Source: Flavobacterium yafengii (GTDB lineage: Bacteria; Bacteroidota; Bacteroidia; Flavobacteriales; Flavobacteriaceae). From it: DNA of 64,000 nucleotides. The stretch is from the NCBI RefSeq assembly GCF_030010375.1, contig NZ_JASCRY010000003.1, positions 496,001 to 560,000 of the forward strand, given 5' to 3'. Each line of letters begins with the position of its first letter. The first letter of the stretch is position 1. This document shows positions 11,513 through 61,432 of the stretch, in pieces. The position numbers and the translations under genes are program-made. Under the pieces are notes generated by a model. That model saw only the letters and a list, made by a program, of their open reading frames with translations. It was not told where the DNA came from and searched no databases.

Positions 11513-11539
11513 TTGCATGCTAATAATTACAACATAATT

Positions 11540-12370
11540 ATGCAAAGATTAAAGTCAAAATTTGACTCTTTTAGACACAGAACTAATGTCGTAATTTACG
11601 GAACCAATACGGCTTCCGGCAGATTATTTGATCTTATTCTTTTAGGCGTTATTCTAGTTAGTGTTGTTATAGTTATGCTTGAAACTGTAAAAGGTTTTGA
11701 TATAAAGTACCATTATGAACTCATTGTATTGGAATGGATTATAACCATTTTCTTTACTTTAGAATACCTTCTTAGAATTATATCCATCAAAAAACCTTTG
11801 AAATACATCTTTAGTTTTTATGGAATAATTGATTTGATAGCAACGTTACCCATGTATTTCTCCTTATTTATTGTTGGAACAAGCGTTTTAACAGTTGTTA
11901 GGGCTTTACGCTTGTTGCGATTATTCAAGATCCTGAAACACCCAAAATTCTCCAGTCAATCCACTCACTTAAAAGAAGCCTTGATTGCCAGCAGAGGTAA
12001 AATACTTATTTTTATCTACTTCATGTTAATCAGCAGTGTAATAATTGGCTCCGTAATGTACGTCGTTGAGGGAGAAGAAGGCGGTTTTACCAGCATTCCC
12101 ATCAGTATTTATTGGACCATCGTAACGCTTACAACAGTAGGTTATGGCGATATTTCACCCATAACACCACTTGGTCAAGCAATTGCTTCGGTAGTAATGA
12201 TCATGGGATACGGTATTATTGCCGTCCCTACAGGAATAGTCTCTGCTGAATTCGCTAACAACAACCGTAAAAAACCAAGGGCCGAAAGAATCAATCCGTG
12301 CTCTGTTTGCGGAACCGAAGGACATGAACATAATGCAAAATACTGCTACCATTGTGGTGCAGATTTATAA
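11540..12370 (+). CDS. Voltage-gated K+ channel family protein with C-terminal zinc ribbon
   Basis: 276 residues. Transmembrane segments S1-S4 occupy about 30-133, with S4 arginines in RALRLLRLFKILKH (121-134); S5, a pore loop and S6 follow, with the filter TTVGYGD (198-204). It is therefore a six-segment Kv-like channel of the inner membrane. The C-terminal 25 residues carry two CxxC pairs (C254/C257 and C269/C272), a small zinc ribbon not typical of bacterial Kv channels, suggesting a regulatory cytoplasmic tail. The start at ATG 11540 is preferred over a TTG nine codons earlier. The 27-bp gap after the exonuclease stop suggests cotranscription. Confidence 0.9.
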   Translation: MQRLKSKFDSFRHRTNVVIYGTNTASGRLFDLILLGVILVSVVIVMLETVKGFDIKYHYELIVLEWIITIFFTLEYLLRIISIKKPLKYIFSFYGIIDLIATLPMYFSLFIVGTSVLTVVRALRLLRLFKILKHPKFSSQSTHLKEALIASRGKILIFIYFMLISSVIIGSVMYVVEGEEGGFTSIPISIYWTIVTLTTVGYGDISPITPLGQAIASVVMIMGYGIIAVPTGIVSAEFANNNRKKPRAERINPCSVCGTEGHEHNAKYCYHCGADL

Positions 12371-12381
12371 TACTAATAATT

Positions 12382-12525
12382 AGAAGCTAATTCCAGCTGT
12401 ACACTACAACTCCTCGTTATTACAGTTGTTTTTCTAAGGCATAAAAGGAGCTTCCTTTGGTCGCTCTTTTACACCAAGAAAAACTAACTTTCATAACTCC
12501 GGGGTTTTCGTTTCCATCTGGGCTA
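12382..12525 (+). repeat. Dispersed structured repeat, copy 1 (long form), upstream of miaA
   Basis: The ends are AGCTAATTCCAGCTGTAC near 12385-12402 and TTTCCATCTGGGCTA at 12511-12525. They match the ends of three other copies in the window (28003, 40658, 54291). CCAG pairs with CTGG here, where the other copies use CCCG/CGGG or CCTG/CAGG. The inside is longer than in other copies and has its own hairpins (ACAACT/AGTTGT at 12406-12429; AAAGG/CCTTT at 12444-12458). It lies on the same strand as, and just ahead of, miaA. Confidence 0.7.
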
Positions 12526-12531
12526 AAAAAC

Positions 12532-13452
12532 ATGAAATACTTAATCACCATTATCGGACCCACGGCTATAGGAAAAACTTCCTTGAGTATCGTATTAGCT
12601 AATTATTTTAAATGTGATATTATTTCCTGTGACAGCAGGCAGTTTTTCAAGGAAATGACCATTGGAACCGCTGTACCTAACAAAGCCGAGTTAGAAGCAG
12701 CTAAACATCATTTCATCCAAAACAAATCCGTATTCGAAAATTATACTGTTGGTGATTTCGAGAAAGAAGCTATTGCTAAACTTGACGAATTATTTTTGAC
12801 CAATGATTACGCCATTTTAGTTGGTGGTTCCGGATTGTATGTTGATGCTATTCTAAAAGGTTTTGATGAATTTCCAGAAATAGACGCTTCAGTTCGTACT
12901 GAAATAAATACAAATTATGAAAAACTAGGGATCGGATATTTACAACAAAAACTCGAAGTTTTAGATCCAGATTATTACAAAAGTTTGACCGCCGAAAATT
13001 CTCAAACGCTACAAAATCCGCAACGAATGATGCGTTTCGTAGAAGTTTGTATTGGTGCCGGAAAACCGTATTCTTCTTTTTTAAAGCAGAAAAAAAACAG
13101 CCGAAACTTCACTCCAATTTTAATAGGTCTGGAAGCTGACAGAAAAATCATTTACAACCGAATCAATCAACGCGTTGATATTATGATGAATGAAGGACTT
13201 CAGGCTGAAGCAAAAACGTTATTCCCAAATAAAGAGTTGAATGCACTGCAAACCGTGGGTTACAGAGAATTATTCAGCTATTTTGACAGAGAAATTTCAT
13301 TGGAATTTGCCATAGAAGAAATAAAGAAAAACACGCGACGATTTTCAAAACGTCAATTGACTTGGTTTAAAAGAAATGAAAACACCAAATGGTTTGATTT
13401 TGAAACTCCGTATGAAACTATTGTAGATTACATCCATTCGAAAAAAAAATAA
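12532..13452 (+). CDS. miaA: tRNA dimethylallyltransferase
   Basis: 306 residues. P-loop GPTAIGKTSLS close to the N-terminus; DSRQFFKEMTIGTA is the substrate and tRNA-binding signature; LVGGSGLYVDAILKG and QTVGYRELFSYF follow, then the C-terminal TRRFSKRQLTWFKR. The enzyme adds a dimethylallyl group to N6 of A37 in tRNAs that read UNN codons. Length fits MiaA. The start at ATG 12532 is chosen because the upstream extension to 12457 runs through the repeat element and has no family similarity. The acyl-ACP thioesterase gene follows after 40 bp. Confidence 0.96.
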   Translation: MKYLITIIGPTAIGKTSLSIVLANYFKCDIISCDSRQFFKEMTIGTAVPNKAELEAAKHHFIQNKSVFENYTVGDFEKEAIAKLDELFLTNDYAILVGGSGLYVDAILKGFDEFPEIDASVRTEINTNYEKLGIGYLQQKLEVLDPDYYKSLTAENSQTLQNPQRMMRFVEVCIGAGKPYSSFLKQKKNSRNFTPILIGLEADRKIIYNRINQRVDIMMNEGLQAEAKTLFPNKELNALQTVGYRELFSYFDREISLEFAIEEIKKNTRRFSKRQLTWFKRNENTKWFDFETPYETIVDYIHSKKK

Positions 13453-23250: not shown

Positions 23251-24462
23251 CTATTTCATAAAATGTACTTTCACCTTTTCCAGAATATCATCAGCAACAG
23301 CTTCTTTCGATTTCAATTCCATTGGCTCAATATTGAAATATTTATCAATAAAGGTAACTTTATTCGTTGCTTTACCAAAACCAGCACCCTGATCTTGAAG
23401 CGAATTTAAAACAATCAAATCTAAGTTTTTTTTCTGAATTTTCAAGGTCGCATTTTCAATTTCATTTTCTGTTTCTAAAGCAAAACCTATCAGAAACTGA
23501 TTTTTCTTTTGTTCCCCCAAAGAAGCTAATATATCCTTCGTTTTTTCGAGTTCTATTGTAAAATCATCAGCCGCTTTTTTTATTTTTTGATGTGCAACAT
23601 TCTTGGGTTTATAATCTGCAACGGCCGCAGCTGCAATCGCAACATCCACATCAGCATAAAACTGATGACAAGCCACATACATTTCTTCTGCAGACACAAC
23701 ATTAATCACATTTATCAATGGATTTGAAACTTTACAATTTGTAGGTCCCGAAACCAAAATCACCGAAGCACCCAGATTTGCAGCGCTTATCGCTATATCA
23801 AAACCCATTTTTCCCGAAGAATGATTTCCTATAAAACGCACAGGATCTATTGCTTCGTATGTGGGACCGGCAGTAATTAATATTTTTTTTCCTTTAAGAG
23901 GCAATTTACTGTTTAAATCTGCTTCCAGAAAAGCGATAATGTTTTCAGGTTCCGCCATTCTTCCTTCACCGGATAATCCGCTTGCCAATTCACCGCTTTC
24001 AGCAGGAATTATGACATTGCCAAACTGAGTCAGAGAAGAGAAATTAGCAATAGTAGAAGGATGTTTGTACATGTCTAAATCCATTGCAGGAGCAAAATAC
24101 ACTGGACATTTTGCTGATAAATAAGCCGCAATCAAAAGATTATCACAAGTACCGTTTGTCATTTTAGACAAAGTATTTGCAGTTGCTGGAGCAATAACCA
24201 TCAAATCAGCCCAAAGTGCTAATTCAACATGATTATTCCATTTTTCATTCTCGTCGTCTTGATTATAAAAACTGGAATGTACAGGATTTTTGGATAACGT
24301 AGATAACGTAAGAGGAGTTACAAAATCCTTAGAAGCAGGTGTCATTATCACTTGGACATGTGCACCTGCTTTTATGAAAAGTCGTACTAATGTGGCTGTT
24401 TTATAGGCTGCAATTCCACCTGAAACTCCAAGTAGAATTTTCTTACCGCTTAAAACTGACAT
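23251..24462 (-). CDS. coaBC: Bifunctional phosphopantothenoylcysteine decarboxylase/phosphopantothenate-cysteine ligase
   Basis: 403 residues in two domains. The flavoprotein CoaC half (about 1-180) has KILLGVSGGIAAYK, IAPATANTLSKM and FAPAMDLDMY; the CoaB half (about 185-403) has ILITAGPTYEAIDPVRFIGN, HSSGKMG, AAAVADYKP and the K-rich KIKK segment. Together they convert phosphopantothenate and cysteine, with CTP, to phosphopantetheine. It is 8 bp downstream of rpoZ, so the two are cotranscribed. No fusion break or missing motif is seen. Confidence 0.97.
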   Translation of the reverse strand: MSVLSGKKILLGVSGGIAAYKTATLVRLFIKAGAHVQVIMTPASKDFVTPLTLSTLSKNPVHSSFYNQDDENEKWNNHVELALWADLMVIAPATANTLSKMTNGTCDNLLIAAYLSAKCPVYFAPAMDLDMYKHPSTIANFSSLTQFGNVIIPAESGELASGLSGEGRMAEPENIIAFLEADLNSKLPLKGKKILITAGPTYEAIDPVRFIGNHSSGKMGFDIAISAANLGASVILVSGPTNCKVSNPLINVINVVSAEEMYVACHQFYADVDVAIAAAAVADYKPKNVAHQKIKKAADDFTIELEKTKDILASLGEQKKNQFLIGFALETENEIENATLKIQKKNLDLIVLNSLQDQGAGFGKATNKVTFIDKYFNIEPMELKSKEAVADDILEKVKVHFMK

Positions 24463-28002: not shown

Positions 28003-28088
28003 AGCCCTAGCCCCGATTGAAGTGAAAATCATTTTTTATCGTTTTTCACGATAAAAAATATTGCAACGAAAAGCGGGAAATAGCTCCA
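28003..28088 (-). repeat. Dispersed structured repeat, copy 2, between the split 5'-nucleotidase genes
   Basis: On the minus strand it starts GGAGCTATTTCCCGCT and ends TCAATCGGGGCTAG. CCCG near the 5' end pairs with CGGG near the 3' end. The middle is a long hairpin (TTTTTTATCGT/ACGATAAAAAA). The element occupies nearly the whole gap between the two plus-strand genes, just ahead of the metallophosphatase start. Confidence 0.75.
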
Positions 28089-40643: not shown

Positions 40644-40657
40644 TGTAGTATTTTTTT

Positions 40658-40706
40658 TAGCCCTGATAGCAATGGCAGATTGTAACCAATAACAGGAAAT
40701 AGCTCC
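40658..40706 (-). repeat. Dispersed structured repeat, copy 3 (short form), upstream of the DUF2147 gene
   Basis: On the minus strand it reads from GGAGCTATTTCCTGTTATTG to GCTATCAGGGCTA. It keeps both conserved ends, with CCTG paired with CAGG, but has lost most of the inner hairpin, so it shows the minimal element. It lies 15 bp upstream of the DUF2147 start. Confidence 0.7.
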
Positions 40707-54290: not shown

Positions 54291-54362
54291 CCCTAGCCCT
54301 GATGGCAGTGGAAATCCTCCCGTTTTTCAGGGAGATTGCAACGTACAGCAGGAAAAAGCTCC
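54291..54362 (-). repeat. Dispersed structured repeat, copy 4, upstream of kdsA
   Basis: On the minus strand it begins GGAGCTTTTTCCTGCTGTAC and ends CTGCCATCAGGGCTAGGG. CCTG pairs with CAGG, and the middle has the hairpin CTCCC/GGGAG. It lies in the 200-bp gap between the lipoprotein gene and kdsA, followed by AT-rich quasi-repeats (54391-54422). Confidence 0.75.
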
Positions 54363-59131: not shown

Positions 59132-61432
59132 TTACTTAATCAACACAAAATCAACTTTATTATCAGTGCTGGAATCCGTACCTACAAAAACTTGAAAAGC
59201 ACCCGGTTCAGCAATAAATTGTAAATCAGAATTATAGAATTTTAGTTCTTCAACAGAAATTTCGAAAGTTACTGTTCTTTTTTCTCCTTTTTTAAGGACT
59301 ACTTTTTGGAATCCTTTCAATTCTTTTAGAGGTCTTGTAACCGATCCTACTAAATCTCTTATGTACAATTGAACTACTTCTTTCCCATCAAAATTTCCAG
59401 TATTTGTAACATCAACGCTAACCATTACTTTTTCGATGAAATTTATTTTATCAGATGAAATTTTCAAGTTTGAATAGCCAAAAGTGGTATAACTCAATCC
59501 AAAACCAAAAGGATATAAAGGCTCATTTCTTTCGTCAATATAATTCGATCTGAATTTTTCAAACTTCCCTTCTTTATTCGCAAGTGGTCTTCCGGTATTT
59601 TTTTGATTGTAATAAATAGGCACCTGACCTACGCTTCTTGGAAATGTAGCTGTTAATTTTCCGGAAGGATTTTCATTTCCAAACAAAACGTCAGCGATAG
59701 AAGCTCCAGCTTCGCTTCCTGCAAACCAAGTATTCAATATTGCCGGAACAGTTTCATGTTCCTGAACCAATACCAATGGACGTCCTGTAAACAAAACCAA
59801 AACAACTGGTTTTCCTGTTTTCAATAATGCTTGTAATAAGTCTTTTTGAGCTTGTGGTATTTCCAAATTAGTTCGGCTGCTGCTTTCTCCGGACATTTCT
59901 GCTGATTCCCCTAAAGCGGCCACAATAACATCAGATTGATTGGCTATTTTCAAGGCTTCCGCCAATAATTCTTCGGTAGTTCTGCTATCGCGGTGCAACG
60001 TTTTTCCGAACATAGTTGCTTTTTCTTCGAAAGCTGCATCATAATCCAAATTGCTTCCTTTGGCGTAAAGCACTTTTGTAGCATCACCGGCAACTTCTTT
60101 GATTCCGGCTATTAATGAAATGGATTTATCCATATTAGTAGCCACACTCCAAGTACCCGCCATATTTTCTTTGGCATCAGCCAATGGGCCTATAACTGCA
60201 ACTGTTCCTGATTTTTTTAAAGGAAGCAATTGATTGTTGTTTTTTAATAAAACTAAAGATTGTGCTGAAATAGCTCTAGCTTCTGATCTGTGGCTTTTTG
60301 TAAAGACTTCAGTTTTTGCTCTATTTTCATCACAATACTTGTAAGGATCATGAAATAATCCCAAATCATATTTGGCATTCAAAATAAGGCGAGCCGCATT
60401 ATCAATTTGTTCGATACTCACTTTTCCTTCTTCCAATGATTTCTTCAAAGTAGTAAGGAAACCTTCACCCACCATATCCATTTCAATTCCGGCATTTAAT
60501 GCCAAAGCTGATACAGTTTGTAAATCCCCCATTCCGTGTTCTATCATTTCAGGAATTCCTGTAAAATCAGTCACCACAAAACCATTAAAACCCCATTGTT
60601 TTCTCAACACATCAGTCATTAACCATTTGTTTCCGGTAGCGGGAATCCCATCAATTTCATTGAAAGACGCCATAACCGAACCAACTCCGGCATCAATAGC
60701 AGCTTTGTATGGAGGAAAATAATCGTTGTACATTTTTATTCGGCTCATATCAACCGTGTTGTAATCACGTCCTGCATCTGGCGCGCCATACAAAGCAAAA
60801 TGTTTCACACATGATAAAATGGTATTGTTCTTTGACAAATCATTTTGTTGGTACCCGTTGACCATTGCTTTCGCAATTTGGCTTCCCAAAAACGGATCTT
60901 CACCCGAACCTTCTGAAACTCTTCCCCAGCGTGGATCACGAGAAATATCAACCATAGGAGAAAAAGTCCAGTTGATTCCATCGGCACTGGCTTCCTGTGC
61001 TGCAATTTGAGCACTTCTTTCAATTAATTTCATATCCCAAGTACAAGACAATCCAAGCGGAATTGGAAAGGTTGTTTCATACCCGTGAATAACATCCATT
61101 CCAAAAAGCAACGGAATCTTCAATCGGCTTTTTTCGACAGCAATTTTCTGTACTTCTTTTATTTTCTGAACTGATTTGATGTTGAATAATCCGCCAACTT
61201 TACCTTCTTCGATATTTTTAGCTACATTAGAACTACTGGCAGCACCAGTTGTAATATCACCAGAAGTTGGTAAATTCAATTGGCCAATTTTCTCTTCCAA
61301 AGTCATTTTCGAAAGTAATTCAGCTACGAATTCTGTTTTGGGTTTGATTGTAACTGCCTTTTTAGTTGTCTTTTTTTGGCTGTAGCCAAAAAGTGAAAAG
61401 CCAATAAGGAATATAATAAGTTTAATTTTCAT
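59132..61432 (-). CDS. bglX: GH3 beta-glucosidase (BglX-like), exported
   Basis: 766 residues. The start at 61432 (MKIKLIIFLIGFSLFGYSQ) gives a proper signal peptide; longer readings cover the previous gene's end. Domain order: GH3 TIM barrel (MTLEEKIGQLNLPTSG; GMDVIHGYETTFPIPLGLSC; WGRVSEGSGEDPFLGS; nucleophile D289 in FVVTDFTGIPEM), GH3 C-terminal domain (ALGESAEMSGESSSR with the likely acid/base Glu) and a fibronectin-III-like end (VSVDVTNTGNFDGKEVVQLYI). It removes glucose from the non-reducing end of oligosaccharides. GH3 enzymes beside GH144 act on beta-1,2-glucan in other Bacteroidetes. Confidence 0.94.
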   Translation of the reverse strand: MKIKLIIFLIGFSLFGYSQKKTTKKAVTIKPKTEFVAELLSKMTLEEKIGQLNLPTSGDITTGAASSSNVAKNIEEGKVGGLFNIKSVQKIKEVQKIAVEKSRLKIPLLFGMDVIHGYETTFPIPLGLSCTWDMKLIERSAQIAAQEASADGINWTFSPMVDISRDPRWGRVSEGSGEDPFLGSQIAKAMVNGYQQNDLSKNNTILSCVKHFALYGAPDAGRDYNTVDMSRIKMYNDYFPPYKAAIDAGVGSVMASFNEIDGIPATGNKWLMTDVLRKQWGFNGFVVTDFTGIPEMIEHGMGDLQTVSALALNAGIEMDMVGEGFLTTLKKSLEEGKVSIEQIDNAARLILNAKYDLGLFHDPYKYCDENRAKTEVFTKSHRSEARAISAQSLVLLKNNNQLLPLKKSGTVAVIGPLADAKENMAGTWSVATNMDKSISLIAGIKEVAGDATKVLYAKGSNLDYDAAFEEKATMFGKTLHRDSRTTEELLAEALKIANQSDVIVAALGESAEMSGESSSRTNLEIPQAQKDLLQALLKTGKPVVLVLFTGRPLVLVQEHETVPAILNTWFAGSEAGASIADVLFGNENPSGKLTATFPRSVGQVPIYYNQKNTGRPLANKEGKFEKFRSNYIDERNEPLYPFGFGLSYTTFGYSNLKISSDKINFIEKVMVSVDVTNTGNFDGKEVVQLYIRDLVGSVTRPLKELKGFQKVVLKKGEKRTVTFEISVEELKFYNSDLQFIAEPGAFQVFVGTDSSTDNKVDFVLIK

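Follow-up and report, generated by a model that had tools for sequence, protein, structure and literature searches.

Four dispersed copies of a structured element in the genome of Flavobacterium yafengii are members of Flavo-1 (RF01705), a known Rfam family without an explained function, and their match to it is beyond chance. They lie in a window of 64,000 nucleotides, the whole stretch of DNA that was analyzed (contig NZ_JASCRY010000003.1, positions 496,001 to 560,000). The reading that best accounts for our results, and that we consider somewhat more probable than its competitors taken together, is an ERIC/REP-like structured repeat whose copies spread, are mostly old, and include one that was domesticated beside miaA. 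The Flavobacteriia would then have a dispersed structured repeat of the ERIC/REP kind, of which Flavo-1 is one form. The unit of this repeat would be an imperfect hairpin, with a base that holds conserved non-Watson-Crick steps and one extrahelical C, and with an apex of two kinds: a conserved domain in the long form (~143 nt), and in the short form of Rfam a simple hairpin that can be interchanged. The long form as the fuller unit, with an Rfam model that seems to cover part of the family, is new here.

Flavo-1 copies in the window and in the genome

The first-pass annotation of the window described four copies of a dispersed element, at positions that were borne out to within a few bases, and suggested that they might be Flavo-1; cmscan agreed, three of the four reaching the RF01705 gathering score of 42 bits. 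Copy 1, a long form of ~143 nt, lies at 12386-12528 on the minus strand (43.6 bits, E = 4.8e-6). It scores 167.6 bits with R2, our model of the long form, copy 1 being one of the founding sequences of that model. Copies 2 and 4 are short Flavo-1 elements on the plus strand, the former with an AT-rich inner hairpin (28005-28087; 73 bits and E = 3.8e-14 at 28005-28084) and the latter with a GC-rich one (54291-54359; 63.9 bits, E = 1.2e-11). Copy 3 (40655-40703, plus strand) is a minimal element of 49 nt and misses the gathering score, with 31.1 bits and E = 1.8e-4 in the genome-wide RF01705 search.

The sense of the Rfam model is the reverse complement of that in which the element was first described (GGAGCT...GGGCTA). 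The outer stem pairs given in that description hold: CCCG/CGGG at 28003-28088, CCTG/CAGG at 40658-40706 and 54291-54362, and CCAG/CTGG in copy 1. Its conserved ends needed one correction, as copy 1 begins with GAAGCTAATTCC and not with GGAGCTnTTTCC and spans 12386-12528; the inner hairpin, said to vary freely in length, is by eye lacking in copy 3. All copies had been called intergenic, which is true of the four in the window, since these lie between ORFs, but 7 of 102 copies genome-wide lie mostly within a called ORF. An R2 match within a gene (23299-23426, 27.6 bits) and a match at 61341-61406 (18.8 bits) to R1, a model of the short core, were taken as chance.

A search of the whole genome with RF01705 scored 150 of 1185 candidates and, at E ≤ 0.001, gave at least 103 matches, copy 1 not among them; this is a density of 103 matches per 3.92 Mb. 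We analyzed 102 of the 104 copies formed by these matches and copy 1, the other two lying on small contigs. In the Rfam sense, the short-form core reads [outer stem]-GAT-N-GNA-RY-G-GnA(A)ATC-C-[variable perfect hairpin]-GAT-nnA-RY-G-nAN-AGC-[outer stem]. When the copies were sorted crudely by outer sequence, which failed for four, 72 of the remaining 98 fell in the Rfam type TAGCCC...AGCTCC and 26 in a second type, GCGTGAGGGAT...AGCCCGACC, often closing with TCACGC. R1 matches 25 of 198 genomes of the phylum, of which 10 are in the genus, including this one.

Covariation of the stem, first claimed from the four copies, is now found at scale within this genome, in long copies and in orthologs at miaA. 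Four copies alone would be thin evidence. In 53 copies from this genome, 188 double-change cells were counted against 52.7 in shuffles and 93.3% of the cells are paired (71.5% when shuffled). The outer column pair 5-74 occurs in all four Watson-Crick forms (U-A 18, G-C 16, C-G 11, A-U 8). Since these copies are paralogs, the double-change cells cannot be counted as independent events. Of 93 parsed copies (9 unparsed), 72 have Watson-Crick pairs in a 2-bp helix that lies between the purine-rich internal loops, where shuffles gave 29 on average and 43 at most, and the extrahelical C is present in 64 of 64 copies with a parsable inner stem (29 unparsable).

Two further features were noticed by eye. 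In genus g34 (G033; L210-L219) the copies have a third outer sequence and in many of them a second variable hairpin follows, which suggests a putative three-way junction form. A second element of ~45 bp (ACTTCAC...GGAGTTCAGTGAA), whole or partial, is located within Flavo-1 copies or directly at them, and in those preserved best its position is ATT^GnA (G000 C1:781117-781241, C10:512192-512315, C15:576936-577019, C10:205400 and C18:99786; G148 at window site 2). This nested repeat seems to take Flavo-1 as its target.

The long form

R2 was built from 14 long-form sequences, the element upstream of miaA and its counterparts in relatives. It identifies 16 long copies in this genome with scores of 80.9-167.6 bits, followed by a drop to 67.9 bits and shorter matches; none of the 16 is among the 103 listed RF01705 matches. 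The length is near-constant, 60 of 61 copies from several genomes measuring 140-146 nt and one 154 nt by the model boundaries. The base domain is common to the long form and the Rfam short form. To this the long form adds a conserved upper domain of ~60 nt, absent from Rfam's 76-position model, with a conserved stem and cap GAGC-GA-CC-nnn-GG-AA-GCTC. Short copies fit the architecture of that model (base, inner stem, apical loop), whereas the long form does not, and among 16 loci with the long form in other species 2 attain the Rfam gathering score. This suggests that the Rfam model sees part of the family and that annotation counts would be too low.

In an alignment of 62 long rows, which represent 61 copies because one is included on both strands, two-sided changes occur at 40 of 45 pairs, and 636 double-change cells were counted against 184.9 in shuffles. 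This alignment was fitted to the model, and therefore leans towards it, and it mixes orthologs and paralogs. The row present on both strands belongs to L303:1501-1645 (G000:C1:1571618-1571762), a copy whose apical domain is, by eye, reverse-complemented relative to its base and which R2 scores at 89.6 and 58.7 bits on the two strands; as judged from the sequence, the inversion is a rearrangement at the DNA level.

The long form is largely confined to the genus. At E ≤ 0.001, R2 matches 34 of its 41 genomes, counts that include short copies, and 23 of these 34 have a listed match of 141-154 nt; at E ≤ 1e-12, with stricter filters, its matches in the family come from 3 of 120 genera, one of them this genus. 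The long form had no match in the plasmids or phages searched. Weak matches of a short copy to four Paraclostridium plasmids (E 1e-3 to 4e-3) were taken as chance.

The miaA locus and the likely folded strand

Copy 1 nearly fills the gap between an ion-channel gene (11513-12370, plus strand; Pfam PF00520, E = 1.4e-29, and PF07885, E = 2.8e-13) and miaA, which lies directly downstream and encodes tRNA dimethylallyltransferase (12532-13452, plus strand; TIGR00174 equivalog, 240.4 bits with a cut-off of 148.65). The ATG of miaA is at 12532; the TTG at 12457, given as the start in the ORF list, belongs to an extension. The Rfam-sense strand of copy 1, likely the folded one, is antisense to miaA. 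Its predicted RNA fold has -47.3 kcal/mol (z -6.2), compared with -37.0 (z -3.6) for the other strand, copy 1 being the reference of the ortholog set.

This copy is kept in place across most close relatives. Among the closest miaA loci, the best 80 of 440 found (Flavobacterium and one Flavobacteriaceae record), 70 have the long form beside miaA, in all cases antisense to it. The distance from the model end to the miaA ATG is 3-8 nt in the 70 loci and exactly 3 nt in 45 of them, and the preceding gene ends like the ion-channel protein, with its cysteine motif, in 65 (3 unreadable, 2 misfits). Three of the ten loci without the long form hold remnants, as seen by eye. In an even sample of the genus with 30 miaA loci (40 genomes matched), 12 have the long form at the site, in one orientation, while L038, L055, L056 and L057 have a shorter or weaker element and 14 have none. 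L038 retains the base and has lost the apex, indicating that this change happened in place. Conservation of the miaA long form at its site across most close relatives appears to be a new observation.

The evidence for constraint on the element at this locus is strong. Its identity across 66 species pairs is 0.78-0.81, compared with 0.40 at miaA 4-fold sites. Two other gaps of the same species have identities of 0.466 and 0.497 (36 pairs each), where the element has 0.805, and shuffled elements give 0.579. Between orthologs, simple parsimony on the miaA tree yields 42 compensatory changes, i.e. double changes from one Watson-Crick pair to another. Only the deep comparison shows this conservation: at short distance the gaps with elements are not better conserved (0.76 vs 0.81 in G126, 3 vs 17 gaps; 0.72 vs 0.81 in G148, 4 vs 28 gaps). 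At L298, one of the long sites in common with relatives, identity is 0.77-0.78, below the 0.92-0.95 of its flanks.

The copy between the ion-channel gene and miaA may have been taken over for a local role; most likely it would shape miaA expression, and it would be selected as a folded single strand. A more specific and novel proposal, which we consider rather unlikely, is that the long form is an unmodelled structured nucleic acid, copied from place to place in Flavobacterium genomes and later fixed before miaA, whose folded antisense strand there controls the synthesis of MiaA, the i6A37 enzyme. If this were true, the remaining long copies would be scattered instances of that control element.

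The strand of the element had been called ambiguous, a stem covarying in the same way on either strand. An argument for the Rfam strand can nevertheless be made from the excess of G-T pairs over A-C mismatches. On that strand, the copies of this genome have 27 G-T and 9 A-C (one mis-registered pair removed; the dropped pair 22-155, with 54 A-C and 4 G-T, is a register effect), and the long copies have 79 and 27, a count that leaves out the reverse-strand row of L303 and two positions at which the founding sequence itself has a G-U pair. At the miaA locus, 33 G-T and 22 A-C events were counted with all pairs and 33 and 8 without the three doubtful outermost ones (5-157, 6-156, 7-155), which hold 14 of the 22 A-C events and are absent from the fold of L031. 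With all pairs, the per-cell counts at miaA are 45 G-T and 36 A-C, so the strand result at this locus depends on dropping the three outermost pairs. Results were also mixed for the inner stems of the short copies of this genome (23 G-T, 15 A-C and 90 other mismatches). The Rfam-sense strand folds better in 71 of 93 of the genome's own copies, and the predicted folds contain 72 G-U pairs on the Rfam strand and 160 on the other. With these caveats, the G-T and A-C counts favour the Rfam strand, which is usually antisense to the neighbouring genes.

These strand data would also fit a multi-copy non-coding RNA family, whose copies are transcribed in the Rfam sense and act as folded RNA, with an antisense RNA at miaA. 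Better folding of that strand, both genome-wide and at miaA, the excess of G-T, and the purine-rich internal loops with a covarying 2-bp helix between them all agree with such a family, which we nonetheless judge unlikely. The promoter consensus is TAnnTTTG. Within 25-100 nt upstream, this motif is found 17 times in the Rfam sense and 9 times in the other (~7 expected), in spread bins and not at a fixed distance, and independent RNA genes were rejected on this ground; at miaA, a promoter would lie in the start of the gene. The accessible part of Rochat 2021 (PMC9723704) mentions Flavo-1 matches in several 5' transcribed regions without drawing a function; it has them sense and antisense indistinctly, with many outside transcribed regions, which argues against consistent transcription.

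According to simple ORF calls, 71 of the 102 copies lie between co-directional genes, 46 with the Rfam sense antisense to them and 25 sense (p = 0.017), 23 between divergent genes and 8 between convergent genes; the corresponding shares of intergenic length are 65, 23 and 12%. The long copies of this genome comprise 8 antisense, 1 sense, 6 divergent and 1 convergent, and those of other genomes 29, 7, 6 and 3, miaA orthologs included. Intrinsic terminators were rejected, the few copies between convergent genes (8 of 102, for 12% of intergenic length) making plain terminators unlikely. TTTT is found in the 15 nt that follow the element in 10 of 102 copies read in the Rfam sense and in 28 of 102 read in the sense first described. 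No replication-strand bias was seen in G216 (11 vs 14, hand-counted from sampled GC skew), and the skew of G327 was too noisy.

Another reading is a cis-acting mRNA element in the sense opposite to Rfam's: a hairpin between cistrons or at a 3' end by which the message upstream would be processed or stabilised, or the translation of the gene that follows would be tuned. This sense is on the mRNA strand in 46 of 71 co-directional copies and in 8 of 9 long ones of this genome, it starts within 20 nt of a stop codon in 17 of 52 copies (5 of 29 for the other sense), and the element takes up almost the whole gap at miaA. If the limit is set at 40 nt from the stop codon, however, the two senses are alike (26 of 52 and 15 of 29), the G-T and A-C counts point to the other strand, 25 co-directional copies are reversed and 23 lie between divergent genes; we regard this explanation as unlikely.

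Copying, RAYT genes and known systems

Window sites 1-3 are common to at least one of the relatives G126 and G148. Copy 2 is orthologous in G126 (94% identical over aligned bases) and in G148, where it carries a nested insert; the copy 3 site holds a full hairpin copy in G148 and a 24-bp gap in G126; site 4 has no model match in G148, its sequence being decayed by eye. Of the 15 long copies away from miaA, at least 7 have a counterpart with matching flanks and the same orientation among 15 loci of G126 and G148: 6 of them match on both flanks, and L296 on a single flank in place. This is a lower bound because only the listed top copies of each relative were compared. These shared sites indicate that many sites are old and have been kept vertically.

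Copying of the element was observed in relative G132, in which 20 long copies were compared. Two of them, L423 and L426, share 95% identity along 146 bp, and the rest of the 2.1 kb compared for each gives no match at E ≤ 0.01; as their flanks are unrelated, a discrete unit was copied. No target-site duplication was seen by eye in this single pair, which has no clean empty site. Recent mobility in G243, proposed from equal scores, was dropped, since the equal copies, near contig ends, adjoin a longer shared stretch. The earlier suspicion of a REP-like dispersed element is sustained in that Flavo-1 behaves as a REP/ERIC-type repeat in its copy number and in being copied as a unit in a relative. 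In our preferred reading, of an ERIC/REP-like repeat, an enzyme reading one folded strand, as single-stranded DNA or RNA, would have recognised the unit and copied it, and most copies would now merely sit between genes.

A lone Pfam Y1_Tnp match near a Flavo-1 copy made mobilisation by a RAYT (TnpA-REP) transposase, with Flavo-1 as its cognate REP, the first hypothesis. The gene (L001:860-1920; G000:C1:151457-152517; NF047646, 80.1 bits) ends ~0.4 kb from a Flavo-1 match, and across 120 genera Y1_Tnp and Flavo-1 are associated (39 with both, 9 with Y1 only, 38 with Flavo-1 only, 34 with neither; Fisher p = 0.002, uncorrected for genome size). Yet of 30 Y1 loci from the family 1 carries the Flavo-1 core, and of 30 RAYT loci from the genus 4 do, this genome's own locus counting in both sets; ~2.5 of the latter are expected from the Flavo-1 density of this genome. 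RAYT genes are found in 31 of 41 genomes of the genus at E ≤ 0.001 (16 above the cut-off), and their number does not correlate with that of long-model matches (Spearman 0.18, p = 0.26); G149 and G123, with 53 and 42 long-model matches, have no RAYT match. Moreover, 12 of 24 genera with at least 10 Flavo-1 matches have no Y1_Tnp match, although Pfam may miss RAYTs that NF047646 finds. With no linkage beyond chance and no copy-number correlation, the hypothesis was dropped and we consider it highly improbable; no mobilising enzyme was found in these searches. A different hairpin repeat, CCACACGAAAGGATTCGTGCGGTAG, flanks the RAYT gene in several copies and both orientations (by eye) and is, to judge by its sequence, a separate REP-like family. 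A second, weak RAYT-like match (C17:221237-221398, 27.1 bits) is below the family cut-off, so that the count of one RAYT is that of Pfam alone.

Flavo-1 has no known function in the parts of the literature available to us. It is listed in a table in the accessible part of Weinberg 2010 (PMC2864571), the portion of PMC9029176 at hand gives it no function, and those of PMC3733652 and PMC12306157 do not name it. The available main text of PMC9723704 does not mention miaA. Quentin 2018 (PMC6006769), in the portion seen, describes atypical structures beside Bacteroidetes TnpA genes. Open-licence texts on Flavo-1, RF01705, Bacteroidetes RAYT/REP and Flavobacterium repeats, as far as they were accessible, contained no description of the long form or of a Flavo-1 mechanism. 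The long form offers a full-length unit for further work, together with an event of copying that is well defined, a strand that is likely the folded one and, at miaA, a locus accessible to studies of function.

Short copies are members of RF01705 by score, and the base domain of the long form is alike; the difference lies in the 76-position model, which has no counterpart of the conserved upper domain and is filed by Rfam as an sRNA gene. Flavo-1 resembles REP/REPIN elements with RAYT in being a high-copy intergenic hairpin with conserved mismatches, but it is longer, its linkage to RAYT does not exceed chance, and it has no GTAG-type foot tetranucleotide, the feet seen by eye being mostly TAGCCC/AGCTCC or GCGTGAGGG/CCCGACC. 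Integron attC sites combine a conserved base, in which some nucleotides are extrahelical, with a terminal structure that varies. Flavo-1 likewise joins a conserved base to a variable apex, although the box sequences differ and no cassette arrays were noticed. ERIC (IRU) and NEMIS/Correia elements are dispersed intergenic imperfect palindromes of ~100-150 bp, present in dozens per genome and without a gene of their own. Flavo-1 is similarly an imperfect palindrome that is dispersed, lies for the most part between genes and is copied as a unit, a likeness and not a sign of shared descent. Those elements occur in other phyla, and Flavo-1 is set apart by its conserved non-Watson-Crick base, its interchangeable apex and one site kept across most close relatives.
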